From the IMG/VR virus record IMGVR_UViG_3300023174_003158, positions 1-64,000 of that record: a DNA stretch of 64,000 nucleotides, one strand, 5' to 3'. The first letter of the stretch is position 1; every line of letters begins with the position of its first letter. Origin of the DNA: a virus. Below are positions 1,302 through 33,300 of this stretch, piece after piece. Position numbers and translations under genes: made by a program. Under the pieces are notes generated by a model. That model did no database searches. It was not told the DNA's origin and worked only from the letters and a program-made list of their open reading frames with translations.

Positions 1302-1386
1302 TAGCCAGACAAGGACTTGAACCTTGAACGCCGTTTTTAACTCGGCCTCTCTTTATAGATAGCGTCTACCATTCCGCCACCTGACT
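1302..1386 (-). tRNA. tRNA-Leu-like element, anticodon arm uncertain
   Basis: Read on the minus strand: acceptor 5' strand AGTCAGG (with wobbles) pairing TCTGGCT, U8, a textbook Leu-type D arm (GCGGAAT..GGTAGACGC), a perfect T arm (CAAGG/CCTTG around TTCAAGT) and discriminator A. No CCA is encoded. The middle is odd. The only good hairpin, GCCG/CGGC, would present loop GTTAAAA (anticodon UAA, Leu; U33 and A37 correct). That leaves 15 extra nt between the D arm and this hairpin and only 3 nt of variable loop. The alternative is a long variable arm combined with a defective anticodon arm. Confidence 0.6.
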
Positions 1387-1435
1387 AACGGTTATTATGT
1401 TACCACCAACGCTTTTTGTGCTGGAGCGACCAGTG

Positions 1436-1569
1436 TAGCCAGGGTCGGACTCGAACCGAATACCGTTCAAGACGGATTAGACAACCTTACGACGCAACGG
1501 CCACCCTAGTATCGGTAACCGCCAATCTTGGGGATTCGGGAACCACTCCCTCATTACGCCCACCTGACT
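1436..1569 (-). tRNA. Long tRNA-like element, same acceptor family
   Basis: 134 nt. It has the same acceptor strands AGTCAGG and CCTGGCT, discriminator A, and a T arm (TCGG/CCGA around TTCGAGT). Between them is a core about 50 nt longer than a normal tRNA, with several GC hairpins. One (AATCCG..CGG.ATT) has a 7-nt loop TCTTGAA that could give a UUG (Gln) anticodon, but with C33 instead of U33. It may be a composite of two rearranged tRNAs rather than one functional tRNA. Confidence 0.4.
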
Positions 1570-1574
1570 ATTTT

Positions 1575-1692
1575 TAAGAACTTAAATGTGCTACCGTTAC
1601 ACTAACCTTGGGTCTCGAACCCATATCTCCCGTTACCGGGTGTTTTACCACTTAAACTATCACCGGTGACTCGAACACCGGACTTTTTATGT
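1575..1692 (-). other. Fragments of further tRNA genes
   Basis: Three tRNA pieces are fused here on the minus strand. First is an isolated perfect T arm (CGGTG/CACCG around TTCGAGT). Second is a near-complete tRNA with perfect D arm (GTTT/AAAC, GG and A21 in place) and T loop, but a collapsed anticodon arm (CCCG-GTAA-CGGG, 4-nt loop). Third is a perfect D arm (GTGT/GCAC) followed by TTTAAGTTCTTAAA, where UCU (Arg) could be an anticodon, but no T arm follows. None closes an acceptor stem. They look like remnants of a recombining tRNA cluster. Confidence 0.5.
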
Positions 1693-1693
1693 G

Positions 1694-1793
1694 TAGTCAG
1701 GACAAGATTTGAACTTGTATGAAGTATCTTAGGCATATTTCGTCATGATTAATACTTCTCACCGTGTGCGTCTACCAATTCCGCCACCTGACT
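1694..1793 (-). tRNA. tRNA-Leu-like element with enlarged core
   Basis: Acceptor stem AGTCAGG/CCTGACT is perfect (7 bp) with discriminator A. The D arm is of Leu type (GCGGAATTGGTAGACGC) and the T arm is perfect (ACAAG/CTTGT around TTCAAAT). Between the D stem and T stem lie 49 nt, against about 33 in a normal tRNA-Leu. The best core helix is GAAATAT/ATACTTC (one mismatch) closing the 7-nt loop GCCTAAG, which would place CUA at the anticodon but with C33. It is total 100 nt, with no encoded CCA. Its charging and decoding identity cannot be settled by eye. Confidence 0.55.
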
Positions 1794-1799
1794 ATTTAA

Positions 1800-2012
1800 T
1801 TATTTACTTTCTCTTCCATCACCATCAATATACAATACCTTTACAGGTTTTTCATCACCTAATATTACTATTGTATCATATTCACCATCTTCATTTACTT
1901 TACCCGTCCATCCTTTTTCTGTCGGCCAAATTTCATATCCATATTCATAACAAAGAGCATCAATTTTGTTAAGAAACTCTTCCATCTTTGGACTTATTTT
2001 ATCTTCTCCCAT
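1800..2012 (-). CDS. Hypothetical protein embedded in tRNA cluster
   Basis: 70 residues from the ATG at 2012 (MGEDKISPKMEEFLNKIDALCYEYGYEIWPTEKGW). An in-frame TTG farther upstream lies inside the 2026-2119 tRNA-like element, so the ATG is preferred. The N-terminal half is helical and acidic; the C-terminal half is beta-rich (YDTIVILGDEKPVKVLYIDG). No family recognised. It lies exactly between two tRNA-like elements, 6 nt from one and 13 nt from the other. Confidence 0.65.
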   Translation of the reverse strand: MGEDKISPKMEEFLNKIDALCYEYGYEIWPTEKGWTGKVNEDGEYDTIVILGDEKPVKVLYIDGDGRESK

Positions 2013-2025
2013 ATTTTGTTTTTTG

Positions 2026-2119
2026 TAGCCAGGACAGGATTTGAACCTGTAAGCTTTTTGCCTTAACAAAGGTATCGGACAGAGAATCCAAAAGCGTCTA
2101 CCAATTCCGCCACCTGACT
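2026..2119 (-). tRNA. tRNA-Leu-like element with extended variable region
   Basis: Acceptor AGTCAGG pairs with CCTGGCT (G-T wobble), discriminator A. The D arm is identical to the 1694 element and the T arm is perfect (ACAGG/CCTGT). A 17-nt hairpin TTGGA/TCCGA with a 7-nt loop TTCTCTG fits an anticodon arm, but would give CUC with a pyrimidine at 37. Downstream, CCTT/AAGG forms a variable-arm-like hairpin followed by about 10 unpaired nt. A rival fold gives loop TTAAGGC with anticodon AAG (Leu). Length is 94 nt, no CCA encoded. Confidence 0.55.
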
Positions 2120-16080: not shown

Positions 16081-19000
16081 TTATGAGAATGATAATGTTG
16101 CTTGATAAAATGAATTAACGTGGAATAATTTGTCAAGGGTTGTAAACACTAAACGTAAGGTATGGACAGTATTCGCAGGTAAAAGATATGGTGGTGGAAT
16201 AATTATTACAGGAACAATTGGGCCATCATTACATCCTAACCCTCCTCCAGGAGCCTGTCCATTTGAAACTTCTGCACCATCAAGAAAAAAGCTCATTCTA
16301 TCAAATCCGGTCGCCTGTAATTCACCTTGACCAAACCAAGTAAGATTTAAATTTGTATTTACAGGACCTACCGTTATTGTTGCAGTTGCAGTCGCTTCTT
16401 GCGTTATATCACAACCTCCCACCTGACAATTTAGAGATGGTGCAACATTAAATCTAATCGTTAAATTATCGGGTGATATGACCCACCCCGCCGATTGACA
16501 ACCTGTTACACCTTCCGTATTTTTTGTTGTTGACCATACTAAACCTGACACAGGTAACGGTACTCTTGTAGGTGTAGGTGTTTTAGTTTTAGTTGGAGTC
16601 GCCGACATAGTTGGTGTTTGACTAGCAGTTCTAGTAGGTGTGTTTGAAGCCGTTGGTGTTGGTGTTGAAGTTAATGTTGGCACCGAACAACATCCATTGA
16701 GTTCCGTGATTAAAATATCGCCAGAAATCGAATCCACATTCAAAGAACAAATTGTCGCACTACCTGATTTAGGAAACTCATCTGTCACTGTATCACCATA
16801 ACAATTAGTATAAGAATATCGCCCTAGATAAGGACCTGTTAAAAGATAAGAACAACATCTACCAGCACAATATTTTACATCACAAACTAAAGTTGGTGTT
16901 GGTGTTGCGGTTTTTGTCGGTGTTTGTGTTGCGGTTTTTGTCGGTGTTTGTGTTGTGGTTTTTGTTGGAGTTTGTGATGTTGTTCTCGTTGGAGTCGAAG
17001 TATTAGTCGGTGTTTGTGTTGGTGTCTGAGTTTGAGTTTGAGTTCTTGTTGCGGTATTAGTCGGTGTTTGAGTCAGCGTTTGTGCTCTAGTTGCGGTGTT
17101 AGTTGGAGTTTGCGTCGTAGTTTTTGTTGGTGTCTGTGTCGGTGTTTGAGTCCTTGTCGCAGTATTAGTTGGTGTTTGCGTCGATGTTTGTGTTGGTGTT
17201 TGAGTCCTTGTCGCAGTGTTTGTTGGTGTTTGCGTCGATGTTTTAGTTGGTGTCTGTGTTGGAGTTGCGGTATTTGTTGGTGTTTTAGTTGCAGTATTTG
17301 TTGGTGTCTGTGTTGGTGTTTGAGTTCTTGTTGCTGTATTAGTCGGTGTTTGCGTTGCAGTATTGGTAGGTGTTTTAGTAGTTGTTGCAGTATTTGTTGG
17401 TGTTTGTGTTGGAGTTTGAGTCCTTGTTGCGGTATTAGTCGGCGTTTGTGTTGTAGTATTTGTTGGTGTTTGTGTCGGTGTTTGGGTTCTTGTCGCAGTG
17501 TTTGTCGGCGTTTGTGTCGGTGTAGAAGTATTGGTTGCAGTATTAGTAGGTGTCTGTGTAGGTGTTTGAGTTCTTGTTGCAGTATTAGTCGCAGTTCTTG
17601 TTGCCGTATTAGTTGGTGTTTGAGTCGTAGTATTAGTAGGTGTTTGTGTTGGTGTTTTTGTCATTGTTGGTGTCTGAGTTTGTGTTACAGTTGGTGTTGG
17701 CGTTTTAGTAGGACAATTATATATATTAGTCGTACAATCAGGACATCCGGCCGATGGCGAAAGAATCGAACCGTTTCCATAAGTAATACTAGGAGGTGTC
17801 ATAAACTTATACGTCGCACAACCTACAAACCCATCCGTTCTAATATAGTAAGTTGCATCGACAACTGGTGTACCAAGCGTTAAGTCAACATTAAACCTTG
17901 AACCATCACAACACGATTCCCACCCAAGAGTTGATATTGTTGGAGTTACAGTTGGTGTTGCTGTATTGGTTGGAGTTTGAGTTTTAGTTGCAGTATTCGT
18001 CGGTGTTTGAGTATTTGTAGGTGTTTTAGTTGGAGTTTGAGTTTTGGTCGCAGTATTTGTTGGTGTTTGTGTTGGTGTTTCAGTTCTTGTTGCAGTATTA
18101 GTCGCCGTATTAGTTGCGGTATTGGTTGGAGTTTGTGTTGCAGTGTTAGTCGGTGTTTGTGTAGGTGTTTGAGTTCTTGTTGCGGTACTAGTTGGAGTCT
18201 GTGTTGCAGTACTAGTTGGTGTTTTAGTCGCAGTATTTGTTGGGGTCTGTGTTGTGGTATTAGTTTGTGTTTGAGTTTGAGTTGTAGTATTAGTTGGTGT
18301 TTGAGTTTGAGTTGTAGTATTAGTTGGTGTTTGAGTTGTAGTATTAGTTGGTGTCTGTGTTGAAGTTTTTGTTGGTGTTTGAGTTCTTGTCGCAGTATTT
18401 GTCGGTGTTTGAGTCGCAGTTTGAGTCGGTGTTTGAGTCGCAGTTTGAGTCGGTGTTTGAGTCGCAGTTTGAGTTGGGGTATTGGTAGGTGTTTGGGTTG
18501 GCGTTTTTGTGTTTGTTGCAGTATTTGTGGGTGTTTGAGTTGGTGTCTGTGTTGGAGTTTGAGTTCTTGTCGCAGTATTGGTTGCAGTATTTGTAGGTGT
18601 TTGAGTTCTTGTCGCAGTATTAGTTGGTGTAGGTGTTTGAGTTGGCGTTTTAGTTGGTGTCTGTGTAGGACACGGAAAATCTAATTTACAAGCATCACAA
18701 TTTCCAAAATCAACAACACCTATCGCACCATTTGTATATGTCAATCCTGGCGGTGTCATAATTTTATATGTCGCACAACCGGTGAACTGTGTTGATGTTA
18801 CATAATACACTCTACCTTCAACAAGAGTTGTTGGTATAGTTAATATTAAAGAGAACCGAGTACCATCACAACAAGCCTCCCAATTAAGACTTGAAATGGT
18901 AGGTGTTACAGTTGGTGTTGACGTATTGGTTGGAGTATTGGTTGGTGTTTTAGTATTAGTTGGTGTCTGCGTATTTGTCGTAGTATTGGTTGGAGTTTGA

Positions 19001-20964
19001 GTTGAGGTTTTAGTCGTTGTTGGAGTATTAGTTGAGGTATTAGTAGGTGTCTGTGTTGCAGTATTTGTAGGGGTATTTGTTGCAGTATTTGTCGGCGTTT
19101 GTGTTGCGGTTTTAGTTGGTGTTTGAGTTTTAGTAGCCGTATTTGTAGGTGTTTGAGTTGTCGTATTTGTCGGCGTATTTGTAGGGGTTTGAGTTGGTGT
19201 TTGGGTAGACGTATTCGTTGCCGTATTAGTTGGTGTTTGAGTTTGCGTTGTAGTATTAGTTGGAGTTTGAGTAGGTGTTTGTGTTGCGGTTTTAGTTGGT
19301 GTTTGAGTACTAGTTGGTGTTTTAGTTGCAGTATTTGTTGCGGTATTAGTTGGTGTTTGTGTAGGTGTTTGAGTTCCAGTTTTGGTTGGTGTTTGAGTTT
19401 GCGTTGGTGTTTGTGTTGCGGTTTTAGTCGGTGTTTGAGTTTGTGTAGGAGTTTGTGTTCCGGTTTTAGTCGGTGTTTGAGTTAATATTTCCCCATTTGT
19501 TGGTGTGTTTGTAGGTGTTGTAGTATTAGTTGGGGTTTGAGTTTGTGTTGCAGTATTAGTTGGGGTTTGAGTAGGAGTTTGAGTACTAGTTTTTGTTGGT
19601 GTCTGTGTGTTTGTTGGTGTCTTAGTTTGCGTAGATGTTTTGGTCGGCGTTTGAGTTCCGGTTTTAGTTGGAGTGTTTGTTGGTGTCTTAGTTTGAGTTG
19701 CAGTATTAGTTGGGGTCTGTGTTGGTGTCTTAGTTTGCGTAGATGTTTTGGTCGGCGTTTGAGTACTTGTCGCAGTATTAGTCGGGGTCTGTGCCGGTGT
19801 TGAGGTATTTGTTGGAGTTTGTGTTGGAGTTGAAGTATTGGTTGGTGTTTGAGTTGGAGTCTCCGTATTTGTTGGTGTTGGTGTTGGGCTTTCCGGTATA
19901 CCATACCTAAAATCCCAAACATAGTAAATATTTGTATTTGGCCCAGCATAATCAAACGGAACATTCGCACAGAAATAATCAACACCATTTATATTTTGTT
20001 GATAAACAGTTGTACTACTCAATGTCGGTATTAAAGTTTGAAATTGAGCCTTTGTATATTCAACCGTACTACTATAATACCACATCGTATTACCATACGA
20101 TAAATTAAATGGTAGATTAGCAATGCCAATAAGATTTTTAGGTATCTGTAATCTAACCGTATCACCATAATTCGGTAAATTAAATTGAGTGTTTGAATTA
20201 GAATAATAACCAACTTTCCATCCATCCAAACTATTTGGAGTATTATTAAAACTATACCCAAGACCTGAGTTGGTAAGACTACTAAAAGATAAATCGTTAA
20301 TATATTTACCAACATCCGGTAAATCATTTAAAACACTTCCGTATACTTTAGGGGGTACTAGATATGTTGCAACTCCGTTTAGGTCACAATTCGGTAAATT
20401 TCTACCAATACTACATACCGTAGTTGCAGTATAATCACCATAATAATCTATTACAGTGACCGGATAACTACCCGAAGATACATTAAATAATATTTTTTCT
20501 CTAACTCCATTCGCCCACAAAACATTATATGGACTTGTTCCACCCGTAATATTAATCCTAATTATACCTCCAGTATTTGTAAAAACATCTACCTCTTGTA
20601 AAATCTCACAACTAATACCCATTGGATAATTTGTATAAATTTCACACGTATTATAATCATACGTGACAATTTTACCTGTTAAAGTAGATGGAGTTGTTGG
20701 ATTGGTTGGTGTTGGGGTATTTGATGGGGTTAACGTTGGTGTTGGGGTATTTGATGGGGTTAACGTTGGTGTTGGTGTTGGGGTGGATGTGGGGCACTGT
20801 GTTATGACTTCATTGTCATTTAAAATAGTTACGTTTTGATATACACTATTTAAATCAAAAGTAATTATATATGGCAAGGCGGTATCACCATAATTAAAAT
20901 TACCGCAACAATCCGTATAAACGTAATTGTTAAGAGTAATACCTGAAACACAATATACCGCCAT
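16081..20964 (-). CDS. Giant Thr-Pro repeat tail fibre 1
   Basis: 1627 residues. The N-terminal head (residues 1-360) starts MAVYCVSGITLNNYVYTDC, has a short TPTPT stretch at about 60-95 and a SprB-like segment (GGTSPYNVLWANG). Residues about 360-1468 form a shaft of Thr-Pro-Thr-Xaa-Thr repeats interrupted by Cys-rich globular islands (about 688-766, 1011-1088 and 1358-1428). The C-terminal tip (about 1475-1627) is a beta domain with four Cys that could bind the receptor. No signal peptide. It is the paralogue of the 2563-aa fibre. The Thr-Pro shaft should be an extended rod, possibly O-glycosylated. Confidence 0.75.
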   Translation of the reverse strand: MAVYCVSGITLNNYVYTDCCGNFNYGDTALPYIITFDLNSVYQNVTILNDNEVITQCPTSTPTPTPTLTPSNTPTPTLTPSNTPTPTNPTTPSTLTGKIVTYDYNTCEIYTNYPMGISCEILQEVDVFTNTGGIIRINITGGTSPYNVLWANGVREKILFNVSSGSYPVTVIDYYGDYTATTVCSIGRNLPNCDLNGVATYLVPPKVYGSVLNDLPDVGKYINDLSFSSLTNSGLGYSFNNTPNSLDGWKVGYYSNSNTQFNLPNYGDTVRLQIPKNLIGIANLPFNLSYGNTMWYYSSTVEYTKAQFQTLIPTLSSTTVYQQNINGVDYFCANVPFDYAGPNTNIYYVWDFRYGIPESPTPTPTNTETPTQTPTNTSTPTQTPTNTSTPAQTPTNTATSTQTPTKTSTQTKTPTQTPTNTATQTKTPTNTPTKTGTQTPTKTSTQTKTPTNTQTPTKTSTQTPTQTPTNTATQTQTPTNTTTPTNTPTNGEILTQTPTKTGTQTPTQTQTPTKTATQTPTQTQTPTKTGTQTPTQTPTNTATNTATKTPTSTQTPTKTATQTPTQTPTNTTTQTQTPTNTATNTSTQTPTQTPTNTPTNTTTQTPTNTATKTQTPTKTATQTPTNTATNTPTNTATQTPTNTSTNTPTTTKTSTQTPTNTTTNTQTPTNTKTPTNTPTNTSTPTVTPTISSLNWEACCDGTRFSLILTIPTTLVEGRVYYVTSTQFTGCATYKIMTPPGLTYTNGAIGVVDFGNCDACKLDFPCPTQTPTKTPTQTPTPTNTATRTQTPTNTATNTATRTQTPTQTPTQTPTNTATNTKTPTQTPTNTPTQTATQTPTQTATQTPTQTATQTPTNTATRTQTPTKTSTQTPTNTTTQTPTNTTTQTQTPTNTTTQTQTQTNTTTQTPTNTATKTPTSTATQTPTSTATRTQTPTQTPTNTATQTPTNTATNTATNTATRTETPTQTPTNTATKTQTPTKTPTNTQTPTNTATKTQTPTNTATPTVTPTISTLGWESCCDGSRFNVDLTLGTPVVDATYYIRTDGFVGCATYKFMTPPSITYGNGSILSPSAGCPDCTTNIYNCPTKTPTPTVTQTQTPTMTKTPTQTPTNTTTQTPTNTATRTATNTATRTQTPTQTPTNTATNTSTPTQTPTNTATRTQTPTQTPTNTTTQTPTNTATRTQTPTQTPTNTATTTKTPTNTATQTPTNTATRTQTPTQTPTNTATKTPTNTATPTQTPTKTSTQTPTNTATRTQTPTQTSTQTPTNTATRTQTPTQTPTKTTTQTPTNTATRAQTLTQTPTNTATRTQTQTQTPTQTPTNTSTPTRTTSQTPTKTTTQTPTKTATQTPTKTATPTPTLVCDVKYCAGRCCSYLLTGPYLGRYSYTNCYGDTVTDEFPKSGSATICSLNVDSISGDILITELNGCCSVPTLTSTPTPTASNTPTRTASQTPTMSATPTKTKTPTPTRVPLPVSGLVWSTTKNTEGVTGCQSAGWVISPDNLTIRFNVAPSLNCQVGGCDITQEATATATITVGPVNTNLNLTWFGQGELQATGFDRMSFFLDGAEVSNGQAPGGGLGCNDGPIVPVIIIPPPYLLPANTVHTLRLVFTTLDKLFHVNSFYQATLSFS
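16560..19890 (-). repeat. Thr-Pro-Thr coding repeat tract of fibre 1
   Basis: Coding-strand units of the form ACxCCAACxAAyACx are repeated with drifting codons, giving (T-P-T-[NKQS]-T-[AQTSK]-[TQ]) tandem peptides. The coding strand is A/C-rich and the template strand G/T-rich, so the region looks like a minisatellite. Three non-repeat islands encoding Cys modules interrupt it (18665-18900, 17700-17930 and 16680-16890). Slippage could change shaft length. Confidence 0.8.
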
Positions 20965-21000
20965 AGTTTATCTTTAAATTATAATTTTTAATTTATTATT

Positions 21001-21007
21001 ATAAATA
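21001..21007 (-). promoter_or_regulatory. TATTTAT element upstream of fibre 1
   Basis: TATTTAT on the coding strand 36 nt from the ATG at 20964, farther than the main class; part of a 57-nt non-coding spacer before fibre 1. Confidence 0.3.
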
Positions 21008-21021
21008 ACCGTTCATTTATT

Positions 21022-24000
21022 TTATAAAACTCCTCCATCAACTATCGTCCAACCGTACCCTCCACTTCCCGTACTTCCTGTTAATAAATTTTTACCCGCT
21101 TGTCCTGCCGCGGTGTATTTAATTGTACTGAATAATATACTTAAGTTAGGTTTAACCGTCTTACCACCTGAAGTCCATCCTGTGTATATATCTGTCAAAT
21201 TAACCGCAGAATAGTCGGAAGATGTTTTACCCTGCATAAAATTACTAACATTTGTTACACCTGAAATATTCCAATTTCCTATAGGTTGATTAAATGCTGT
21301 TGCATAACCAAACATAGTAGTCATATTTGTAACATTAGATGTATTCCAATTTCCTATTGGTTGGTTAAATGTAGTTGCACTATAGAACATAGTATTCATA
21401 GCAGTAACCGCACTTGTCGTCCACCCTGATATTGATGGTGAATTTAAATTATTAAAAGCGGTTGCTTGATAGAATAGAGATATCATATTTGTAACTTTAG
21501 ATGTATCCCAACTTCCAATATTTTGATTGAATGCCGATGTTGCTCGGAACGTATAACTCATATCAGTAACCTTAGAAACATTCCAATTTCCTATTGGTTG
21601 ATTAAATACAGTTGCACCCCAGAACATTTCACTAATGTTAGTAACCGCGCTTGTCGTCCATCCTGATATTGATGTTGAGCCGGAGTTGTTAAACGATGCA
21701 GCATCTTTAAACATAGCTCCCATATTTGTAACTTTAGATGTATTCCAATTTCCAATTGGTTGATTAAATGATGTTGCACCATTAAACATCGTACCCATAA
21801 GTGTAGCCGCACTTGTCGTCCACCCTGATATTGATGGTGAATTTAAATTATTAAAATTTGTTGCAAATTGGAATAATCCCGTAAAGTCCGTAACTTTAGA
21901 TGTATCCCAACTTCCAATATTTTGATTAAATTGTGTTGCGCTTCTAAAAGTACCATTTAAACTTACAACATTAGAAACATTCCAACTTCCAATTGGTTGG
22001 TTAAACGAAGTTGCACCTCGGAACATAGCATTCATATTAGTCGCAGCACTTGTCGTCCATCCTGATATCGATGTTGAACCAGAGTTATTAAATGCCGTTG
22101 CACCATTAAACGTACTAGTGAGTGTATCTATATTAGATAAAATCCAACTTCCAATATTTTGGTCGAATTTTATATTTGTTTGGAATGTACTATTCATTCT
22201 TGTTACTTTTCTTACATCCCACGTTCCAATTGGTTGGTTAAATGGAGTACTTCTAAACATAGAATCCATATTGGTAACCGCGCTTGTCGTCCATCCTGAT
22301 ATTGATGGTGAATTTAAATTATTAAATGCAAGGGCGGCATCAAACATATTATTCATTGCCACAACATTACTAACATCCCAACTTCCAATGTTTTGATTAA
22401 ATAATCCCGCACCATAGAACATATAACCCATACCAAGATTACCGGTAACATTTCTAACGTTCCAACTTCCAATTGGTTGATTAAACGCATCTGCACCATA
22501 GAACATATAACTCATGTCAGTAACTGCAGAAGTAATCCAAGTATTTATTGAATTACTATTACCATTATTAAATGCTCTTGCTTCACGGAACATAGCACTC
22601 ATATTAGTAACCTTAGACGTATCCCAACTTCCAATTGGTTGATTAAAAGTAACCCCACTATAGAACATATAACTCATGTCAGTAACTGCACTTGTCGTCC
22701 ATCCTGATATTGATGGTGACCCAGAGTTATTAAATGTTGGTACGTTTTTAAACATACTATTCATATTCGAAACCTTACCAACCGACCAATTTCCTATATT
22801 ATTGTTAAACGTTACACTACCTTCAAACATAGAACTCATACCCGTAACTTGTGACATATTCCATGAATTAATTCCACTAACACTTGTCAATGACACACAC
22901 TCTCTAAATGCTGAATTAAAGTTTGTTGTTCCTTGGGTATCTAAAATATCCGTTACTCCAGTTAATATTAAATTTCTACTACCATATAAATAAGAACCTT
23001 CGTTAGTTCCAAACCTTAAACTACCCCACTTAGTAATCTCCTTTAATTTTCTACTATCACCCGCATTATTAAATCTCCATCCGGTTAAACCACCCCGTAT
23101 TGCTGAGATTGTTATTGTATATGCACTTGGTGTTGCGTAGGTATGTGTAATACCTGAACTAGGCGATGATGCAACATATTGAGAAGTACCATCACCCCAA
23201 TTTACAGAACAATTATAACTTCCACTTGAAATGAACGGTAAGACAAAATTACTATATGTAGAACTACTTACAGGCGGATATGTTCCTGACGATATAACAC
23301 AGTTACCAAACGTATCAGCACTATATGGTAAAATTTCATATACCACAGTTGTTGTGTCAGGTTGATAAAGTAATACGGTTGCCGTTGGGAATGTTGTTGC
23401 AATATTTGTTCTAACACTACTTAATGATTTTGGTGTTGTTAATGTAACATTCGTTGAGACTCCATTATAAATAAATGACATTACTGTTGTATTTGTAATA
23501 TCAGAATTATTAAAATTATAATATGAATATGTATTTCTTGTGTCAATAAGAGCAACAAAATCATTTATAGGTTGTGTAGGTGTAGGAGTTTGTGTTGTTG
23601 TATTTGTTGGTGTTTGAGTTGAAGTTTGTGTTGGTGTTTGTGTTCTAGTGTTGGTTGGAGTTTGAGTTGAAGTTTGAGTTGGTGTTTGAGTATTTGTAGG
23701 CGTATTTGACATTGTTGGTGTTTGTGTTGCGGTTTGTGTTGGTGTTTGAGTCGCAGTTTGAGTTGGTGTATTAGACATTGTCGGTGTTTGTGTTGAAGTT
23801 TGAGTTGGCGTATTAGACATTGTCGGTGTTTGAGTTGAAGTTTGAGTTGGTGTTTGTGTTGAAGTTTGAGTTGGTGTATTAGACATTGTCGGTGTTTGTG
23901 TTGTTGTATTGGTTGGAGTTTGAGTCGCAGTTTGAGTTGGTGTATTAGACATTGTTGGTGTTTGTGTTGAAGTTTGAGTTGGTGTATTAGACATTGTCGG

Positions 24001-27000
24001 TGTTTGAGTCGCAGTTTGAGTTGGTGTTTGTGTTGGTGTTTCAGTATTGGTTGGAGTTTGTGTTGCAGTATTTGTAGGCGTATTAGACATTGTTGGTGTT
24101 TGAGTAGTTGTATTGGTTGGTGTTTGAGTAGTTGTGTTAGTCGGTGTTTGAGTATTAGTCGCAGTATTAGTTGGTGTATTAGTTGTCGTATTGGTTGGAG
24201 TTTGTGTTGCAGTTTGAGTTTGAGTCGCAGTTTGAGTTGGAGTTTGTGTAGTTGTGTTTGTTGGAGTTTGTGTAGTTGTGTTTGTTGGAGTTTGAGTATT
24301 AGTTACCGTATTGGTTGGTGTTTGAGTAGTTGTCTTTGTTGGAGTTGGAGTTATCAATTCCACATTAGTTGGAGTATTAGTTTGTGTTGCGGTATTAGTT
24401 GGTGTTTGTGTAGTTGTGTTAGTTGGTGTTTGAGTAGTTGTGTTAGTTGGTGTTTGAGTACTAGTCGGTGTTTTAGTCACAGTATTTGTTGGTGTTTGAG
24501 TTGTAGTATTAGTCGCAGTAATAGTTGGTGTTTGTGTTGCAGTAATAGTTGGTGTTTGTGTTGCAGTATTTGTCGGGGTTTGTGTTGCAGTATTTGTTGG
24601 TGTTTGAGTTTGAGTTGAGGTATTAGTTGGTGTCTGTGTAGTTGTGTTAGTTGGTGTTTGAGTACTAGTTGGTGTTTTAGTCGCAGTATTTGTTGGTGTT
24701 TGAGTATTAGTCTGCGTTTGAGTTGCAGTATTAGTTGGTGTTTGAGTAGTTGTATTTGTCGGTGTCTGCGTTTGAGTTGCAGTATTAGTTGGTGTTTGAG
24801 TAGTTGTGTTAGTCGGTGTATTAGTTGTCGTATTGGTTGGAGTTTGTGTATTAGTCGAAGTATTTGTTGGTGTTTGAGTTCCCGTATTAGTTGGAGTTTG
24901 TGTATTGGTCGAAGTATTTGTTGGCGTTTGAGTCCCCGTATTAGTTGGTGTTTGAGTACTAGTGGGCGTTTTAGTTGTTGTATTTGTAGGCGTTTGAGTT
25001 GCAGTATTTGTTGGTGTTTGAGTTGCAGTATTTGTAGGTGTTTGAGTTGCAGTATTTGTTGGCGTTTGAGTTGTCGTATTTGTTGGTGTTGGTGTTTGAG
25101 TCGTTGTTGTTGTTGGTGTTGGTGAAGGACAAGGATAATTTGTTATGCAAGATTCACAACTTGTTTCCCCACTTATTCCCAAATAATTATAAACCGTACC
25201 GGTAGTTATGGTGTTGATGCACTTAGCACAAAATATGAATCCTTCAGCAGTTGCAACCGAGTAGAAATTTCCAACAATAGGTGCTGAACCTCCAGGAATT
25301 GCCTGAACTCTAAAACTAACCCCAAAACAACATCCACTAAATGAACCAACCACCGGAACTAATGGTGTTGTTGTTGGTGTTTGAGTTGTTGTGTTAGTAG
25401 GTGTTTGAGTATTTGTTGGAGTATTTGTTGCGGTTTTAGTTGGTGTTGGGGTATTGGTTGATGTTTGTGTTGCGGTATTGGTTTGCGTATTTGTGGGTGT
25501 TTGAGTAGCAGTATTAGTCGGAGTTTGAGTTGTAGTGTTTGTAGGTGTTTGAGTATTGGTTGATGTTTGTGTTGTAGTGTTTGTTGGAGTTTGAGTCGTA
25601 GTGTTTGTGGGCGTTTTCGTATTTGTTGGTGTATTAGTTGAAGTACTTGTTGGTGTATTAGTTGCCGTATTTGTTGGTGTTTGAGTATTGGTTGATGTTT
25701 GCGTATTTGTTGGTGTTTGTGTTGCAGTATTTGTCGGGGTTTGTGTTGCTGTATTTGTCGGTGTTTGAGTATTGGTTGATGTTTGCGTATTTGTTGGTGT
25801 TTGAGTTGAGGTAGTTGTTGGTGTTTGAGTATTTGTGGTAGTATTAGTCACAGTATTTGTAGGTGTATTTGTTGGTGTCTGTGTATTAGTTCTGGTATTT
25901 GTAGGAGTATTAGTTGGTGTTTTTGTATTTGTTGCAGTATTAGTCGGTGTTTGTGTTGAGGTTTTGGTCGGTGTTGGAGTTACTACAGTACAACAACCAA
26001 CAAGCGTAATTGTTGGTTCAGTTCCAATATAAATAAATGAAGTTATTCCACCTGTTACACAAACATTTACGATTACCGGACCTACCGCACCTCCAATTTC
26101 ATTATAACAATCAAAATATGTTACTGAAGTTCCGTCAGGAACAATTAAATTATATTCACAACAACCACCGGCAGAACAATATGTTTCATCACAAATAAAC
26201 GTAGACGTTGGTGTTTGAGTTGGAGTTTGGGTTGGAGTTGATGTTTTGGTTGCTGTGTTAGTCGGTGTTGATGTTTTGGTTGCAGTATTTGTTGGTGTAT
26301 TGGTTGCGGTGTTAGTCGGTGTTGATGTTTTGGTTGCAGTATTAGTTGGTGTATTGGTTGCGGTGTTAGTTGGTGTATTTGTAGGTGTTTTTGTTTGGGT
26401 TTGGGTAGGTGTTTGCGTCGGTACGGCACAACAACCAATCAATTCGGTTAGTGTTCCTCCAACAATTGATGCAGACCTATTAGAACAAAAAGATATAATA
26501 CCTGAAGGTGTGAAGTTATCATTTATCGTCACACCATAACAATTCTCATATGAGTACGGTTGTCCCGCCGTTCCGTATAAATTATACGAACAACAATTAG
26601 TTTGACAATAAATTTCATCACATGTGAAGGTTGGTGTTGGTGTCGATGTAATGGTATTAGTTGGTGTGTTGGTTGCGGTTTGTGTTTTAGTAGCAGTATT
26701 TGTTGGAGTGTTTGTTGGTGTTTGTGTATTTGTTGGCGTTTGTGTACTAGTTGGTGTTTTAGTTTGTGTACTAGTTGGTGTTTGTGTATTCGTTGGTGTT
26801 TGTGTACTTGTTGAAGTAACCGTATTTGTTGGTGTATTTGTATTAGTTGGGGTTTGTGTTGGAGTTTTTGTTGCCGTATTAGTTGGAGTATTAGTTGTCG
26901 TATTAGTAGGTGTCTGCGTTGGGGTTTGTGTTGAAGTTTTGGTTGGTGTACTAGTTGATGTTGAGGTATTAGTTGCGGTATTTGTCGCAGTATTTGTTGG

Positions 27001-28713
27001 AGTTTGTGTTGAAGTTTTGGTTGGTGTTTGAGTATTTGTCGGTGTTTTAGTAGGTGTTTGAGTTCCAGTATTTGTTGGAGTTTCAGTTCTTGTATTCGTA
27101 GGAGTATTAGTTGGTGTTTTAGTTGGAGTGTTTGTAGGTGTTTCAGTTCTTGTATTCGTAGGTGTTTGTGTTGCAGTTCTTGTATTGGTTGGTGTTTGGG
27201 TATTTGTAGGAGTATTAGTCATTGTTGGTGTTGGTGTTTGCGTCTCAAATTGGAATGAGAAACAAATATCACCTATTGGGGTTACCGTAGGAGTATTAGT
27301 TGGTGTTGAAGTCTTAGTTACAGTAGGAGTATTAGTTGCCGTTTTAGTTGGTGTTTGTGTATTTGTTGGTGTTTTAGTAGGTGTTTGTGTTTGAGTATTG
27401 GTCGCCGTTTTAGTTGGTGTTTGTGTTGAAGTTTTGGTCGTTGTTGGAGTTTGTGTAGATGTTTGTGTGGACGTTTGTGTTGCGGTTTTTGTTGGAGTAT
27501 TTGTAGGTGTTTGAGTTTGTGTTGCGGTTTTTGTTGGCGTTTGTGTACTGGTACTAGTATTAGTTGGTGTTTGAGTTTGAGTTGCAGTATTAGTCGGTGT
27601 TTGAGTAGGTGTTGCGGTTTGTGTTGGTGTTTGTGTTGGAGTTCTTGTTATATTATATCTATAATCCCAAACATAATATACATAAGTGTCCGTACCAGCA
27701 TACTGAAAAGGAACATTCGCACAATAATAATCAATACCATTAATAGTTTGTTCGTATACGGTTGTACTACTAAGGTAAGGGATTAGATTTTCAAACTGAG
27801 ATTGTGTATACTCAACATCACTTACATAATACGACATGGTATTAAGAAGTGCGGTCGCAAATGGTAAATCCGCAGGTGGATATAAATTCTTAGCAACCTG
27901 TAACCTTATCGTATTTCCAAAATTTGATAAATTATCGGTAATGTTTGAATTTTGATAAAACCCTATTTGCCACCCATTTAATGGTTGTGTATTATTATTA
28001 AAATTAAACCCTAACGCACTATTTGTAGTACTGCTGAAAGATAGATTATCGACATATTTGCCTGTATCTGGTAAATCATTTAACACAACACCATATACAA
28101 CCGGAGCCTTTAAAAAGTTGGCACTACCTATTAACTCACAATTTGGAATATTTCTCACTAACGAACAACTTGTAGTTGCTGTATAGTCACCATAATAATC
28201 CACAACAGTAACACTATAACTACCCTCAGACAAATTAAATACCGTATCTTGCCTTGAACCATTACTCCAAAAATAAGAATAAGGACTTGTTCCCCCGGTC
28301 ACGTCAACTTTTAATATACCACCACTATTCGTAAATAAATCGGGGTCTGCCAAAACTCTACAACTAATCCCCATAGGAAAATTAGTGTATATTTGACATT
28401 GGTTAAATTCTGTAGTAACAACCTTAATTCTCAAAACCGATGGTGTTGTCACAGTTGGTGTTGGAGTGTTTGTTGGAGTTGTTGTAGGTGTTGGAGTGTT
28501 TGTTGGGGTTAACGTTGGTGTTGGTGTGGGAGTTCGTGTAGGACAATTGGAACTAAATTCCGAGTTAGGTATTAAAGTTACATTTTGATAAAATGAGTTC
28601 GCGTCCAAAGATATTAAATACCCAAGTGAATTATCTCCATAGACCGTATTCCCACAACAATCAGTGTAGACAAAACTATTAAGTGTAATACCCGAAACAC
28701 AAGATACTGCCAT
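21022..28713 (-). CDS. Giant Thr-Pro repeat tail fibre 2 with BspA-like tip
   Basis: 2563 residues, the largest gene in the window. Its head (1-350) is the diverged paralogue of fibre 1 (MAVSCVSGITLNSFVYTDC; SprB-like GGTSPYSYFWSNG). A Thr-Pro shaft covers about 353-1712 with Cys islands at about 696-759, 838-909 and 1114-1201. The tip begins with a PKD-like segment (SVNWGDGTSQYV..ITHTY) and continues with BspA/DUF285 repeats (MSYMFYGADAFNQPIGSWN pattern, about 1930-2520), a leucine-rich-like fold known from surface proteins of Bacteroidota, mycoplasmas and protists. Most likely the distal receptor-binding fibre. Confidence 0.78.
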   Translation of the reverse strand: MAVSCVSGITLNSFVYTDCCGNTVYGDNSLGYLISLDANSFYQNVTLIPNSEFSSNCPTRTPTPTPTLTPTNTPTPTTTPTNTPTPTVTTPSVLRIKVVTTEFNQCQIYTNFPMGISCRVLADPDLFTNSGGILKVDVTGGTSPYSYFWSNGSRQDTVFNLSEGSYSVTVVDYYGDYTATTSCSLVRNIPNCELIGSANFLKAPVVYGVVLNDLPDTGKYVDNLSFSSTTNSALGFNFNNNTQPLNGWQIGFYQNSNITDNLSNFGNTIRLQVAKNLYPPADLPFATALLNTMSYYVSDVEYTQSQFENLIPYLSSTTVYEQTINGIDYYCANVPFQYAGTDTYVYYVWDYRYNITRTPTQTPTQTATPTQTPTNTATQTQTPTNTSTSTQTPTKTATQTQTPTNTPTKTATQTSTQTSTQTPTTTKTSTQTPTKTATNTQTQTPTKTPTNTQTPTKTATNTPTVTKTSTPTNTPTVTPIGDICFSFQFETQTPTPTMTNTPTNTQTPTNTRTATQTPTNTRTETPTNTPTKTPTNTPTNTRTETPTNTGTQTPTKTPTNTQTPTKTSTQTPTNTATNTATNTSTSTSTPTKTSTQTPTQTPTNTTTNTPTNTATKTPTQTPTNTNTPTNTVTSTSTQTPTNTQTPTSTQTKTPTSTQTPTNTQTPTNTPTNTATKTQTATNTPTNTITSTPTPTFTCDEIYCQTNCCSYNLYGTAGQPYSYENCYGVTINDNFTPSGIISFCSNRSASIVGGTLTELIGCCAVPTQTPTQTQTKTPTNTPTNTATNTPTNTATKTSTPTNTATNTPTNTATKTSTPTNTATKTSTPTQTPTQTPTSTFICDETYCSAGGCCEYNLIVPDGTSVTYFDCYNEIGGAVGPVIVNVCVTGGITSFIYIGTEPTITLVGCCTVVTPTPTKTSTQTPTNTATNTKTPTNTPTNTRTNTQTPTNTPTNTVTNTTTNTQTPTTTSTQTPTNTQTSTNTQTPTNTATQTPTNTATQTPTNTQTSTNTQTPTNTATNTPTSTSTNTPTNTKTPTNTTTQTPTNTTTQTSTNTQTPTNTTTQTPTNTATQTPTNTQTNTATQTSTNTPTPTKTATNTPTNTQTPTNTTTQTPTTTPLVPVVGSFSGCCFGVSFRVQAIPGGSAPIVGNFYSVATAEGFIFCAKCINTITTGTVYNYLGISGETSCESCITNYPCPSPTPTTTTTQTPTPTNTTTQTPTNTATQTPTNTATQTPTNTATQTPTNTTTKTPTSTQTPTNTGTQTPTNTSTNTQTPTNTGTQTPTNTSTNTQTPTNTTTNTPTNTTTQTPTNTATQTQTPTNTTTQTPTNTATQTQTNTQTPTNTATKTPTSTQTPTNTTTQTPTNTSTQTQTPTNTATQTPTNTATQTPTITATQTPTITATNTTTQTPTNTVTKTPTSTQTPTNTTTQTPTNTTTQTPTNTATQTNTPTNVELITPTPTKTTTQTPTNTVTNTQTPTNTTTQTPTNTTTQTPTQTATQTQTATQTPTNTTTNTPTNTATNTQTPTNTTTQTPTNTTTQTPTMSNTPTNTATQTPTNTETPTQTPTQTATQTPTMSNTPTQTSTQTPTMSNTPTQTATQTPTNTTTQTPTMSNTPTQTSTQTPTQTSTQTPTMSNTPTQTSTQTPTMSNTPTQTATQTPTQTATQTPTMSNTPTNTQTPTQTSTQTPTNTRTQTPTQTSTQTPTNTTTQTPTPTQPINDFVALIDTRNTYSYYNFNNSDITNTTVMSFIYNGVSTNVTLTTPKSLSSVRTNIATTFPTATVLLYQPDTTTVVYEILPYSADTFGNCVISSGTYPPVSSSTYSNFVLPFISSGSYNCSVNWGDGTSQYVASSPSSGITHTYATPSAYTITISAIRGGLTGWRFNNAGDSRKLKEITKWGSLRFGTNEGSYLYGSRNLILTGVTDILDTQGTTNFNSAFRECVSLTSVSGINSWNMSQVTGMSSMFEGSVTFNNNIGNWSVGKVSNMNSMFKNVPTFNNSGSPSISGWTTSAVTDMSYMFYSGVTFNQPIGSWDTSKVTNMSAMFREARAFNNGNSNSINTWITSAVTDMSYMFYGADAFNQPIGSWNVRNVTGNLGMGYMFYGAGLFNQNIGSWDVSNVVAMNNMFDAALAFNNLNSPSISGWTTSAVTNMDSMFRSTPFNQPIGTWDVRKVTRMNSTFQTNIKFDQNIGSWILSNIDTLTSTFNGATAFNNSGSTSISGWTTSAATNMNAMFRGATSFNQPIGSWNVSNVVSLNGTFRSATQFNQNIGSWDTSKVTDFTGLFQFATNFNNLNSPSISGWTTSAATLMGTMFNGATSFNQPIGNWNTSKVTNMGAMFKDAASFNNSGSTSISGWTTSAVTNISEMFWGATVFNQPIGNWNVSKVTDMSYTFRATSAFNQNIGSWDTSKVTNMISLFYQATAFNNLNSPSISGWTTSAVTAMNTMFYSATTFNQPIGNWNTSNVTNMTTMFGYATAFNQPIGNWNISGVTNVSNFMQGKTSSDYSAVNLTDIYTGWTSGGKTVKPNLSILFSTIKYTAAGQAGKNLLTGSTGSGGYGWTIVDGGVL
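21240..22950 (-). repeat. BspA/DUF285-type protein repeats
   Basis: Tandem units of about 23-25 residues alternate in pairs: 'S-x-V-T-x-M-x-x-M-F-x-x-A-x-x-F-N-Q-P-I-G-x-W' and 'FNNSGSPSISGWTTSAVTDM'-type. Each pair is about 46 residues. DNA copies are recognisably similar (for example the repeated plus-strand CTTGTCGTCCA at several sites), so recombination between units is plausible. Confidence 0.8.
23580..27655 (-). repeat. Thr-Pro-Thr coding repeat tract of fibre 2
   Basis: Same codon pattern as in fibre 1 but longer. The middle part contains a distinctive sub-repeat T-P-T-M-S-N-T-P-T (plus-strand ATTAGACATTG) absent from fibre 1. Interrupting islands: short ones at about 27240-27290 and 24340-24370, Cys modules at about 26435-26625, 25985-26200 and 25110-25370. 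Confidence 0.8.
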
Positions 28714-28715
28714 TT

Positions 28716-29363
28716 TTAATTACAAATATTGAAATCCGTTGTTGAACCTGAATTGTTTATCCTAACTGCATATAGGCTAGAACCAAATTGCATTTTCAAG
28801 TATTCATTTTTACCAACAAATGGGTCATATAATACACCATTTAATGCGGTTTGATAAATAACTGAATTAATTACTGGTACTGAGGTTGCACCACTTGTAT
28901 ATGTGTAAAGTGTTGAATAGGTCATAACATCTAAACAACTATCCGTTATTGTTGGATATGTAGTTCTAGATATATAGTGACCCACAAACAAAGGTGTTGT
29001 TGTTGGTGTTGGAGTGGTGGTAGGGGTTTTAGTTGGGGTTGTAGATTTGGTTGGAGTATTTGTAGGTGTTGAAGTGGTGGTTGGTGTTTGAGTATTTGTA
29101 GGTGTTGGTGTAGGTGTTTGTGAAGTTGTTACGGATGGTGTAGGTGTTGGAGTTATATATATAAATCTACCATTTTCATATCCCATTCCGTCAACAATTT
29201 TAATCAAAACGTCTGTTTCATCATACGGAGGTTCGACCGTAAATGTATACGGAGACCCGGTAATCGAACTAACAAATTGACAACTTGCACTCATAGAATC
29301 ACAGTAATATACTGAAACCGGATTGTTAGCCACATATGATTCAATACTTACACTTAAACTCAT
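28716..29363 (-). CDS. Small fibre-like protein with Thr-Pro linker
   Basis: 215 residues. The N-terminal domain (about 1-70) reads MSLSVSIESYVANNPVSVYY..C, then C-x-F-V-S-S-I-T and SPYTFTVEPPYDETD, matching the 73-aa protein encoded next door (29360-29578), so the two are paralogues. A TPTPT linker (about 72-125) follows, then a C-terminal domain (SDSCLDV-type Cys pair, about 130-215). It overlaps the upstream gene by ATGA and ends 3 nt before fibre 2 starts, so the fibre set is one operon. It could be a short side fibre or an adaptor. Confidence 0.65.
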   Translation of the reverse strand: MSLSVSIESYVANNPVSVYYCDSMSASCQFVSSITGSPYTFTVEPPYDETDVLIKIVDGMGYENGRFIYITPTPTPSVTTSQTPTPTPTNTQTPTTTSTPTNTPTKSTTPTKTPTTTPTPTTTPLFVGHYISRTTYPTITDSCLDVMTYSTLYTYTSGATSVPVINSVIYQTALNGVLYDPFVGKNEYLKMQFGSSLYAVRINNSGSTTDFNICN

Positions 29364-29578
29364 AAAACTGATTTTTGACCTGATATTATTGAGCCGTTCG
29401 CATCAATAAGTTTAAGGAGATAACCTCCTGATTTGTCATATGGTTTTGGTATAATAAAGGTATATGGTACCTCAGTTATTCTACCAATATATAAACAAGT
29501 TGTTGCTCCCGTTTGACAAATATATATGTCATACGGAGATTGACCTGTTATGGAACTTATATTAACTTCAACCGACAT
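29360..29578 (-). CDS. Small single-domain fibre protein, 72 aa
   Basis: The ATG at 29578 shares its A with the TAA of the upstream gene (TAATG), which makes it the proper start; an in-frame GTG 33 nt upstream would overlap. The protein reads MSVEVNISSITGQSPYDIYIC..C, YTFIIPKPYDKSGG and LLKLIDANG. It consists of just the N-terminal domain seen in the 28716-29363 protein, with its two Cys. Function unknown; probably a small structural or adaptor subunit of the fibre complex. Confidence 0.65.
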   Translation of the reverse strand: MSVEVNISSITGQSPYDIYICQTGATTCLYIGRITEVPYTFIIPKPYDKSGGYLLKLIDANGSIISGQKSVL

Positions 29579-30351
29579 TATATATTTTTTTGATAAAAGT
29601 TTATTAAACACTCATTACAACTAATGAATGTTTGAATTATTGTTGGCGTTGTCGTTTCATTATACGCATATTCACAAGTTATACCTTCATAACTTTTTAT
29701 CACATAACACACATCATCCACATTTAAATCTACCGCAGTATATTCCGGTATCGTTGGATTAGTGTAATACTGATAAACCCTCATGTTAGTTGAATACCCG
29801 TCACACGAATCTACCAAATAACTCTTATACAACGGACAGGTATCACACGTATAATCTTTCCAAGCCGGTGTCGATATTTGATAATCAGTATCTACAAACG
29901 GTGACGTACTAACTATTGTAACACAAAAATAATCCCCACTTGGATTTCTAACCCCAAAAACCTGACCTATAGTTGGAACCAATTTTAAAGTTCCCGTAGG
30001 TGAAACATTACAAACCTTAACATTAACACTTCCACCATTATCACATCTAACCCCAACATAATATGTAAACACGCAATTCGAGGTTATTGTGGCCTGACAA
30101 CTATTACAATCAGGATATCCAATTTCAATTGTGTTTGTTAAAAAATTACCACTATAAAAAATATAAAACACATTATCCGGAGGGATATAACTACTTTCAT
30201 ATTCTCCAAGATAATTCCAACAATTTCCAATAGAATCTTTAAATATCGTATTTGCGATATTAGTATATTCTAATTTGTATGTTTGTCCTATTTGTGTTTT
30301 TTTAGTCGCATTCGTCAATGTTGGAATACAACTTTCGTATAAATAAATCAT
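29578..30351 (-). CDS. Cys-module structural protein, 257 aa
   Basis: 257 residues made of three repeats of a module found as islands in the giant fibres: an initial CD-G or Cys-Asp-G, beta strands, an aromatic, and a terminal C-x-x-C (for example CNSCQ, TCDTC, SCNECL). Cys spacing suggests disulfides or metal sites; no Thr-Pro linkers. It ends TAATG into the 29360-29578 gene and begins 8 nt after the 30360 gene. A free-standing version of the fibre Cys module, so perhaps a fibre-interacting subunit. Confidence 0.65.
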   Translation of the reverse strand: MIYLYESCIPTLTNATKKTQIGQTYKLEYTNIANTIFKDSIGNCWNYLGEYESSYIPPDNVFYIFYSGNFLTNTIEIGYPDCNSCQATITSNCVFTYYVGVRCDNGGSVNVKVCNVSPTGTLKLVPTIGQVFGVRNPSGDYFCVTIVSTSPFVDTDYQISTPAWKDYTCDTCPLYKSYLVDSCDGYSTNMRVYQYYTNPTIPEYTAVDLNVDDVCYVIKSYEGITCEYAYNETTTPTIIQTFISCNECLINFYQKNI

Positions 30352-30359
30352 ATCTTTTT

Positions 30360-33300
30360 TTATGTTACAAAACTTATTAAAACGCCGCTTGTTCCTGTTA
30401 ATCTATTATATGCTGCAATGCCTGCCGCCGATGTTGGTGGTGTGGTTGCCCCTTCATATTCTAATTCTATGAGTTTATTATTTACCCATGTTTTACCCGT
30501 TAAATCAATAAGTATGTTATCAACTGCGGTTAAACTAAATCCATAACTTGAACCCAAATTGGTAATTTTAACATCTGACATAGAACTATACCAATTATAT
30601 GGTGATGTATATCCTGTTATTGTATTATTACCACCAAAACTAACACTTGATAATGCGTTAGTAGGGAAATCACTTAAACTTCCGTCCACAGTATTATTAC
30701 CAAACAAACTTATATTTCTTAATGCTGTTTTACTTGTTATTGATGTTGTACTTCCACTTATTGTATTACCTTCATAAAGAGCTAAACTTATCATCTTTAT
30801 TGGAATATTTGAAATATTCCCACTAATTGGATTTGTTCCTCCACTAATTTGGAATACTAATAAATCTGTCATTACTGCCAAATCACTAGTGTTACCCGAA
30901 ATAGCATTATACGCACCTAACAAAGAAACTTCTGTCATACCTGTTGAGAAATCACTAGTTAATCCTGAAATACCCGATGTCCCATATAAATAAAGAATTT
31001 TAACTGTTTTAGGAACATTACTAACTAAACCTCTAATAGAACTACCACTACTTCTTATGTTTACTGTAACCGCACTAGCAGGTATCCCCGTGGTGTTACC
31101 CGTAATTATACTGTTACCAACAATAGCAAGTGTTGAAGTAATTCCACTTGGGGTATCCGCAATATCACCTGTTATCGTATTATTACCAGTAATTAAACAA
31201 TAATTCAAAGCAGATGGGATATCCGCAGTATTACCCGACAATGTATTATTACCAGCAATTGAAAGTGTACTTAAAGTAGAGTTATGTGGTAATCCCACAA
31301 CATTACCTGATATTGTATTATTACCAAGTATTGCAAGGTAATACATACCACTTGGTCTAGGTACACCTGTTGAATCCCCACCAATTGTTGTATCACCCCA
31401 AATAAAAGTGTATGTTAGTCCTGTAGGTAAATCACTAACACCTCCAGATAAATTATTTTTATTTGTTTGTAAAGTTGTTAAAGTTCTTGGTAGTTGCGAT
31501 GTAACACCACTAACATAAGCATTTCCACTATTTGAACCTGCAGGGTCTAAATTAGGGCCAAATTCAAGTCTTGTTAACCCATTAAGCTTACTCATTTCAG
31601 CCGTCGTAAATGTTAATCCTGATGATGTTGCACCTGTTATGGTATTTGTTATCGTTATTCTCGTTATAGTGGTTAAATCTATTGAATTGAATGTTATATC
31701 ACCCGTATATAGTGATGAATATATGTGACTTATCGTATTCGTTCCTGACGGATACGTGTTGGATGTTGAATCACCCCAATTTACCACAGTAGGAGTAGAG
31801 CTCACCCATGTTGCAAATGTAACCGCAGATAAATTAAATGCCTTCATTGTGAACGATTCCAACGGTCGTGTTATTGTTGGTGTCTGCGTTGGTGTACTTG
31901 TTTTTGTTGGTGTTTGAGTTGGAGTGCTTGTTTTTGTTTGGGTTGGTGTTTTGGTAGTTGTTGGTGTTGGTGTCTGGCTTGCAGGAATACATCCCGCCGG
32001 ACTACCAAATATTCTTTGTATATTTAAAACATTTGAGTTTGAACTTAATGTGTTATCATCTCTATCGTATTTAAAACAAGATTGTATAATACCACCATTA
32101 TTAGAATTGATAGTCCCATAGAAATAAATTCCGGGTAACAAATCAATCGTTCCAAATATTAAATTGTCTGAGGTATAATGTTCCAAAGATGTTGAAACAT
32201 CAATCAATACTCTTGTTGTAGGACACTCCAAAGTTGGGTCAAGGTATTCAAATGTTGCTCTTGCAGATATACCGACTTTATTTGGTGGTGTTGTTGTAGG
32301 TGTTGGAGTAACTGTTGGTGTCGGTGTTTGCGAAGAATTAAATATTGAAAAATTCATTCCAACGTTATATACCGGACTATTTGATGGTGTTGGAGTTACA
32401 AAATTATATGTAAATGTAAAACTAACGGCACTTTGAGGAACAAGATTAGTCGGTGTTGGTGTTACAGGAAAATCGCAATCAAAATATGCAACAAAATCAA
32501 ATGTTTCACAATTAACCGGCGGTGTTGGTGTAGTACAAATCCCTCCAACAAATATATTACTATCCAAATCCGGACAATTAGAATAACAAGGTCTCTTACC
32601 TTGCAAAGAACAAACACCACCCAAAGATGTACTTAAACACCATTCATTATTAGTATAATATATTAACCCATTATTAACACTATCCCCTGTATAATATAAC
32701 CTACCGTTATAATTAGTTAGTGTTGAACTGTATGTACCATTAAATCCCGTTAAAGAAATTAATTTAGTATCAAAACAAAAATTGGTATATTCACAAGGTA
32801 AAGGTGTTGGTGATGGTGTTGGAGTGATTGTTGGTGTTGGTCTTGGAGTTTGTGTCGGTGTTGGTGTTGGTTCACAAAAATCACAACTTTTAAACTGAGG
32901 CGACCCTAAATAAGTTCCGCCCGCCCCTCCGAACTCCAAAAATGAATAACAAATTCCGTTATCAACATATGTGGCACCTAAGAAAGCAGTATCTGAATCA
33001 ACATTATAATAATGTACGGTTCCATCCGAACATCTATACATCACCGCAGATTGAATTGTTGTCCTAGGACATATATTATCAAAACAATCCGAAGCCAAAG
33101 TAAACGTAACTCCGTTTCCATCATATAGTAATCCAACACCAGTGTATGTAACTATTGTCGCACATCCCTCAAATTCACCAAGACCTTGAATATAATAAGT
33201 TGCCCCGGTTGTTGATGGAATACCATTTCCCGCAAATCTAAAAACATTGTTTCCGTCCTCACAACTTCTAAATTGTGTTTGTCTTAACCCTGAAGGGGTA

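Follow-up and report, generated by a model that had tools for sequence, protein, structure and literature searches.

A viral family of tRNA-like elements with a constant frame and exchangeable cores of predicted structure

We describe a viral family of tRNA-like elements in which a constant tRNA frame encloses cores that are unrelated to one another in sequence and that are exchanged between phages. In IMG/VR, pattern scans detected at least 510 distinct elements at a minimum of 351 loci, with at least 357 unrelated core families, and four of the elements lie in the stretch of viral DNA analyzed here (64,000 nucleotides, positions 1 to 64,000 of record IMGVR_UViG_3300023174_003158; hereafter the window). 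The pieces of this arrangement are known (tmRNA, ToxI pseudoknots, and engineered tRNA scaffolds); by the tests that we ran, the combination of a constant tRNA frame with exchangeable unrelated cores in a viral family fits none of these.

A preliminary description of the window had reported four elements with shared tRNA-like ends and unrelated middles. As listed in Table 1, all four are present, with the spacing between D and T stems that was given for them (more than 90 nt in the case of element B) and with a Leu-type D arm in three of the four, element B being the exception; the extent of the phenomenon was understated.

Table 1. Elements and helix strands in the window
Feature	Positions	Strand	Description
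Element A	1302..1386	minus	AGTCAGG acceptor, Leu-type D arm, 35-nt core
Element B	1436..1569	minus	AGTCAGG...CCTGGCT A acceptor as in A, C, and D; big insert and short core
Element C	1694..1793	minus	Constant acceptor and D and T arms; core of 49 nt that includes a terminal helix of 8 bp
Element C, S2 helix, 5' strand (GAAGTATT)	1751..1758	minus	Helix search; also in the minimum-free-energy fold
Element C, S2 helix, 3' strand	1721..1728	minus	Stops exactly 2 nt short of the T stem, a site enriched family-wide
Element D	2026..2119	minus	Constant acceptor, D arm, and T arm; ~42-43-nt core

Elements A, C, and D score above the Rfam tRNA cut-off of 29 bits (30.8, 38.0, and 41.5 bits, respectively), and element B has no match to the Rfam tRNA model. 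The T arm of element A reads CAAGG-TTCAAGT-CCTTG and is followed by the acceptor 3' strand TCTGGCT and discriminator A. ARAGORN calls two of the four elements with implausible anticodons, “???” in element A and Glu-CTC inside the Leu-type body of element D, and normal anticodon loops in all four, named beforehand as grounds for refuting the description, were not seen. Chance and assembly error, the latter raised beforehand as a possible cause of distorted middle parts, are excluded because the core of element D recurs with 42 of 42 nucleotides identical between unrelated flanks in two unrelated contigs (L137 and L135, the latter encoding a PHROG 6681 large terminase), which places it in three contexts, and because element A has a homologue, with a D-loop insert, in L163. 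The homology between element D and L135/L137 breaks off no more than a few bases from where the tRNA-like part ends. Besides the S2 helix, element C contains a candidate crossing stem. In element B, the insert appears to sit in the D loop (GGCGTAATGAGG..TGG..TTCCC), a tentative structure assignment by which the element would belong to a second architecture of the family, with the insert within the D loop. Element B looks like a mosaic; L266 and L308 match its 3' half at 96% identity, and relatives with a D-loop insert are found in L016, L068, L180, and L190. We also noted a conserved D-loop-insert subfamily (TAATGCGTAATG...ACACCACGGTCCATAA...GGTTGCATCGTT) at seven or more loci (L037:2190(-), L127, L162, L349, and others). 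Between elements B and C, the predicted fold of positions 1570..1692 (minus) has a D-like arm and a pair of T-loop hairpins but no acceptor to match them; this stretch may be one more element, either decayed or unusual, and 1608-1659 within it scores 22.7 bits against the Rfam tRNA model, under the cut-off.

The elements belong to a large viral family in IMG/VR, which we sampled by four pattern scans, scans 1 and 2 each selecting on one end only. An exact 26-nt probe spanning acceptor and D arm matched at least 120 viral stretches, as did each of three other probes (at least 120 each). A Chao1 estimate of ~940 core families, among the matches listed, is a rough lower bound from a sample selected on constant ends. 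Among the same matches, up to nine elements were seen per locus, element length is 55-249 nt (median 104), and the cores span ~19-139 nt, with a median of ~59 nt in a first set. Because the scans listed a limited number of matches and selected on constant ends, the constancy of the ends over all scans is partly due to selection, and prevalence and acceptor diversity are underestimated; however, the constant 3' end is present in 119 of 126 listed elements chosen by the 5' 26-mer alone, which indicates that in this set the constant ends are no selection artifact. The family is nearly absent from cellular genomes (three matches in 84,980 bacterial and archaeal genomes), and a search of cultured phages and plasmids found no member. 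One MAG contig (L125, CAINDQ010000103.1) has two elements together with MtaB-like and other non-phage-looking genes; either the elements occur here in a cell or prophage, or the contig is chimeric. At L388:1006-1067, a freshwater-1 RNA (RF02979) adjoins elements with hypervariable cores, and these two orphan RNA families may travel together.

The outer part of the elements has the features of a canonical tRNA. Among the matches listed, the 357 cluster representatives have U8 in 343, A14 in 314, the A15-U48 Levitt pair in 291, and the D-loop GG in 329 cases, the T loop is mostly TTCGAAT, and the 510 elements have discriminator A in 460 and an encoded C74 in 492 cases. The 7-bp acceptor, the D arm, the T arm with its elbow contacts, and the 3' end (N73 and then C74) are thus those of a tRNA, and the conserved elbow bases, C74, and matching acceptors show the frame to be a genuine tRNA fold. 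Ordinary tRNAs of these contigs generally have C74 as well; it was therefore rejected as a special mark of the family, and the elements share their 3' maturation context with those tRNAs. The idea that only one acceptor is used was likewise rejected, as AGGTAAG, GGTGAGA, AGCAAGG, TGTAAGG, and others carry the same architecture; they are rare in loci selected for AGTCAGG. Two ordinary-looking tRNAs (L073:- 4311 and L168:+ 5004; TTT and TAT by eye) have the AGTCAGG acceptor, indicating that this acceptor is not bound to Leu identity. At L052:8000-8377 (minus), an ARAGORN tmRNA call, probably spurious, overlaps two tRNA calls.

What the elements lack is the 5-bp anticodon stem and 7-nt loop between positions 26 and 44; the place of the anticodon arm and variable region is occupied by cores without common sequence. 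This absence, and the presence of ordinary tRNA-Leu genes (anticodons TAA/TAG) with other acceptors in the same contig set, agree with the earlier proposal of tRNA-like RNAs with a different job. The job that had been suggested as an example, decoys for host anticodon nucleases, is unlikely because the bait needed for it, the anticodon arm, is missing. Several elements are called tRNAs by ARAGORN and Rfam, which could mean that they are non-canonical translating tRNAs, for example with introns hidden in the anticodon arm. We consider this extremely improbable given that group I and tRNA intron features are absent (no constant anticodon exon sequence flanks the cores, and no Rfam intron or ribozyme match was found in the further loci tested) and that ordinary tRNA-Leu genes are available in the contig set. 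With Rfam 15, no family except tRNA scored above the gathering threshold at the elements (27 loci), and a known ribozyme, riboswitch, or intron as the core was rejected, with no match in these 27 loci or in a below-threshold search of 20 loci.

We looked for structure in the cores by counting compensatory changes. In 73 families pooled, helices of at least 4 bp contain 102 such changes compared with 52.6 ± 7.0 at random and a maximum of 77 in 300 nulls. Further, exactly 2 nt separate the 3' strand of a helix from the T stem in 92 of 227 cores compared with 24 in shuffled cores, and strong helices at the same site number 45 compared with 6.2. In the relatives L037/L255/L306/L307 and L036/L236 and their kin, this terminal helix changes sequence and stays paired, with 100 and 97% of cells paired in the two structures, respectively, and with double changes. 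Of alignment A3, in which the L025 row has an altered base in the acceptor, the core columns alone were used. Crossing helices both compensate in three family comparisons, most clearly in L027/L089, which supports predicted pseudoknots in those few families; elsewhere, covariation backs the terminal helix alone. Taken together, the pattern of covariation shows the cores to be structured RNA at the level of sequence comparison. Thermodynamic stability by itself is weak evidence for structure, as the minimum-free-energy z-scores of the cores are mildly negative (mean -0.70). Within families, per-site divergence is 12-14% in the core and 3.5% at the ends, i.e. the ends change 3-4 times more slowly, and in the pooled data, loops were not more conserved than helices. 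No strong common motif is shared across cores; the hexamers GNRA-type CGAAAG (13 compared with 2.4 expected) and GATAAC alone stand out. A role of the cores as antisense guides was rejected, since the longest complementarity to their own locus is 9.11 compared with 9.05 for shuffled cores.

The replacement of cores between constant ends, previously suspected from the four window elements, is borne out by the wider comparison in two ways. First, one locus has six unrelated cores between collinear flanks that are ~81-96% identical up to the element (~90%), and the matches listed contain 59 syntenic pairs with different cores, which come from few loci and are non-independent, next to 79 syntenic pairs with the same core, many with near-identical flanks. 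Second, the same core occurs in unrelated contexts; among the matches listed, both flanks are unrelated in 311 of 428 same-core pairs. Within a locus, by contrast, copies rarely repeat, with the same core in just 2 of 315 within-locus pairs, all-different cores in 113 of 115 multi-element loci, and all copies on one strand in 115 of 115 (each among the matches listed). We conclude from this sharing that the core is an exchangeable cassette, swapped, as the alignments indicate, between phages, and that phages unrelated to one another can have the same whole element. Recombination would be favored by the repeated ends, and with the mosaic look of element B, this is what could be seen if the elements were functionless decaying tRNA genes or selfish recombination cassettes, i.e. 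tRNA-Leu copies scrambled via their ends. The compensatory changes, the fixed helix position, the conserved elbow, the predicted dedicated start sites (see below), and the identical core in three phages make that explanation highly unlikely.

Among the matches listed, 40 elements have a Bacteroidota-type -7 box (TAnnTTTG) at a distance of 10-20 nt upstream, compared with 4.1 expected, with a peak of 19 elements at exactly 12 nt; in ordinary tRNAs of the same contigs, it was found in 16 of 911 cases, once at 12 nt. A matching -33 element was seen for some promoters only. With the usual geometry of Bacteroidota promoters, a -7 box at 12 nt places the start at or very near nucleotide A1, and a subset of elements would thus have a predicted transcription start at or near A1. 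The window's own elements have no -7 box, and processing of a longer transcript probably releases them. As punctuation, the elements could be RNase P/RNase Z processing marks that divide polycistronic phage transcripts, so that the frame alone would matter. The same-strand arrangement of all copies in multi-element loci fits this, as does the position of the elements between genes, in some cases beside terminase genes. We regard it as decidedly unlikely since a promoter that starts at nucleotide 1, as predicted in the subset, makes a 5' cut needless, many of these contigs also have ordinary tRNAs that could do the job, and the structured and exchanged cores are left unexplained.

We propose that each element is a small stable RNA of two layers. 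By sequence, the outer layer is the frame, similar to tRNA-Leu (7-bp acceptor, D and T arms, U8/A14, A15-U48, D-loop GG, T loop, discriminator A, and encoded C74), and the inner layer is the structured core, which substitutes for the anticodon arm and variable region and sometimes enlarges the D loop too. The last core helix is predicted to stack 2 nt ahead of the T stem and, in a few families, to cross an upstream helix and form a pseudoknot. Host tRNA machinery may mature and protect the frame through a precise 5' end, 3' trimming, CCA addition, and the tRNA-like fold, and the core would do the work, as a payload that binds protein or RNA. That the elements are natural tRNA scaffolds with a structured RNA payload of fast turnover is a reading we hold to be about evenly balanced between right and wrong. 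The greater divergence of the cores could also mean that they are loosely constrained plugs, in which case it would be the acceptor/T-arm minihelix that acts, serving as a decoy or sponge against an acceptor-end enzyme (for example, a synthetase, a nucleotidyltransferase toxin, or an acceptor-modifying defense), with the core as a compact, nuclease-resistant filling that bars translation. The slower divergence of the ends, the lack of an anticodon, and the near constancy of acceptor and discriminator, even though selection in scans 1 and 2 was on a single end each, are all consistent with such a decoy. It is nevertheless unlikely, given that the same architecture occurs on other acceptors, that a plug does not require unrelated cores to be swapped at one locus, and that the copies in nearly all multi-element loci differ in core.

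Returning to the scaffold with a payload in its core, fast turnover and cassette exchange fit conflict better than housekeeping, and the non-redundant copies, exchange between relatives, and restriction to phages also fit conflict functions. Judged from the evolutionary pattern alone, the elements therefore probably have a role in phage-host or phage-phage conflict, and they may act against host defenses or rival phages, e.g. as inhibitor RNAs or pseudo-antitoxins. More tentatively, and with somewhat less confidence than doubt, we suggest that Bacteroidota phages keep and trade structured RNA effectors, ~1000 or more of them, on a shared tRNA chassis that would provide maturation and stability, each core binding a different host or viral target. 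Such an effector library, if real, would be the RNA counterpart of anti-defense protein islands and would add a modular RNA platform to the proteins of phage anti-defense or competition; viruses would have evolved the tRNA scaffold that biotechnologists built for stable RNA expression. It would further mean that a large set of rapidly exchanged structured RNAs is displayed on a viral scaffold, that hundreds of unexplored RNA folds are directly testable, and that a large class of odd phage “tRNA” calls needs re-annotation.

The elements share features with several known systems and differ from each. Like tmRNA, they have a tRNA-like acceptor and T arm with structured RNA, pseudoknotted in tmRNA and by prediction in a few element families, where the anticodon arm would be; unlike tmRNA, they have no tag reading frame, keep a 3-bp D stem, are far shorter (Table 1 and the lengths above, compared with more than 250 nt for tmRNA), and are hypervariable. 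The tmRNA alanine identity pair G3-U70 is replaced by U-A at 3-70 (AGTCAGG/CCTGACT; U-G in three window elements), and an Rfam search gave no tmRNA match to the elements. ToxI and its relatives, the type III toxin-antitoxin RNAs, are small, highly diverse H-type pseudoknots that act in phage-host conflict; ToxI is without a tRNA frame, and type III antitoxins form tandem pseudoknot repeats before a ToxN-like gene. Element copies within a locus differ from one another and have the frame, and in a non-systematic view of their surroundings no toxin gene was noticed. In the engineered tRNA scaffold of Ponchon and co-workers (PMC3753655), a structured RNA replaces the anticodon arm, and the tRNA machinery processes and protects the product. 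As in the elements, acceptor, D arm, and T arm are kept, but that scaffold is man-made, whereas the elements are natural and viral, with hundreds of unrelated inserts exchanged between phages. Phage tRNA genes are also known to counter tRNA-cleaving defenses, such as T6 tRNA-Tyr against Septu (PMC13096335). These are phage-encoded and tRNA-shaped like the elements, with copy number and recombination serving as anti-defense, but they are intact, translating tRNAs, whereas the elements have no anticodon arm. A search of the open-access literature, with subscription papers and preprints mostly outside its scope, found nothing comparable.

Phages that carry the elements can differ greatly in their terminases. 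Among its genes, the window phage has T4-like ones (UvsX, SSB, baseplate, helicase, and primase), and its baseplate protein places a Flavobacterium phage among its distant cultured relatives. From the promoters, these relatives, and the one MAG match, we infer that the hosts are Bacteroidota. Elsewhere in the window, positions 16081-28713 (minus) encode two giant proteins of 1627 and 2563 amino acids, which consist mostly of Thr/Pro/Asn/Gln repeats (TPTNTATQTPT...) and lie within a run of probable tail or fiber genes, with shorter relatives at 28716-33881.
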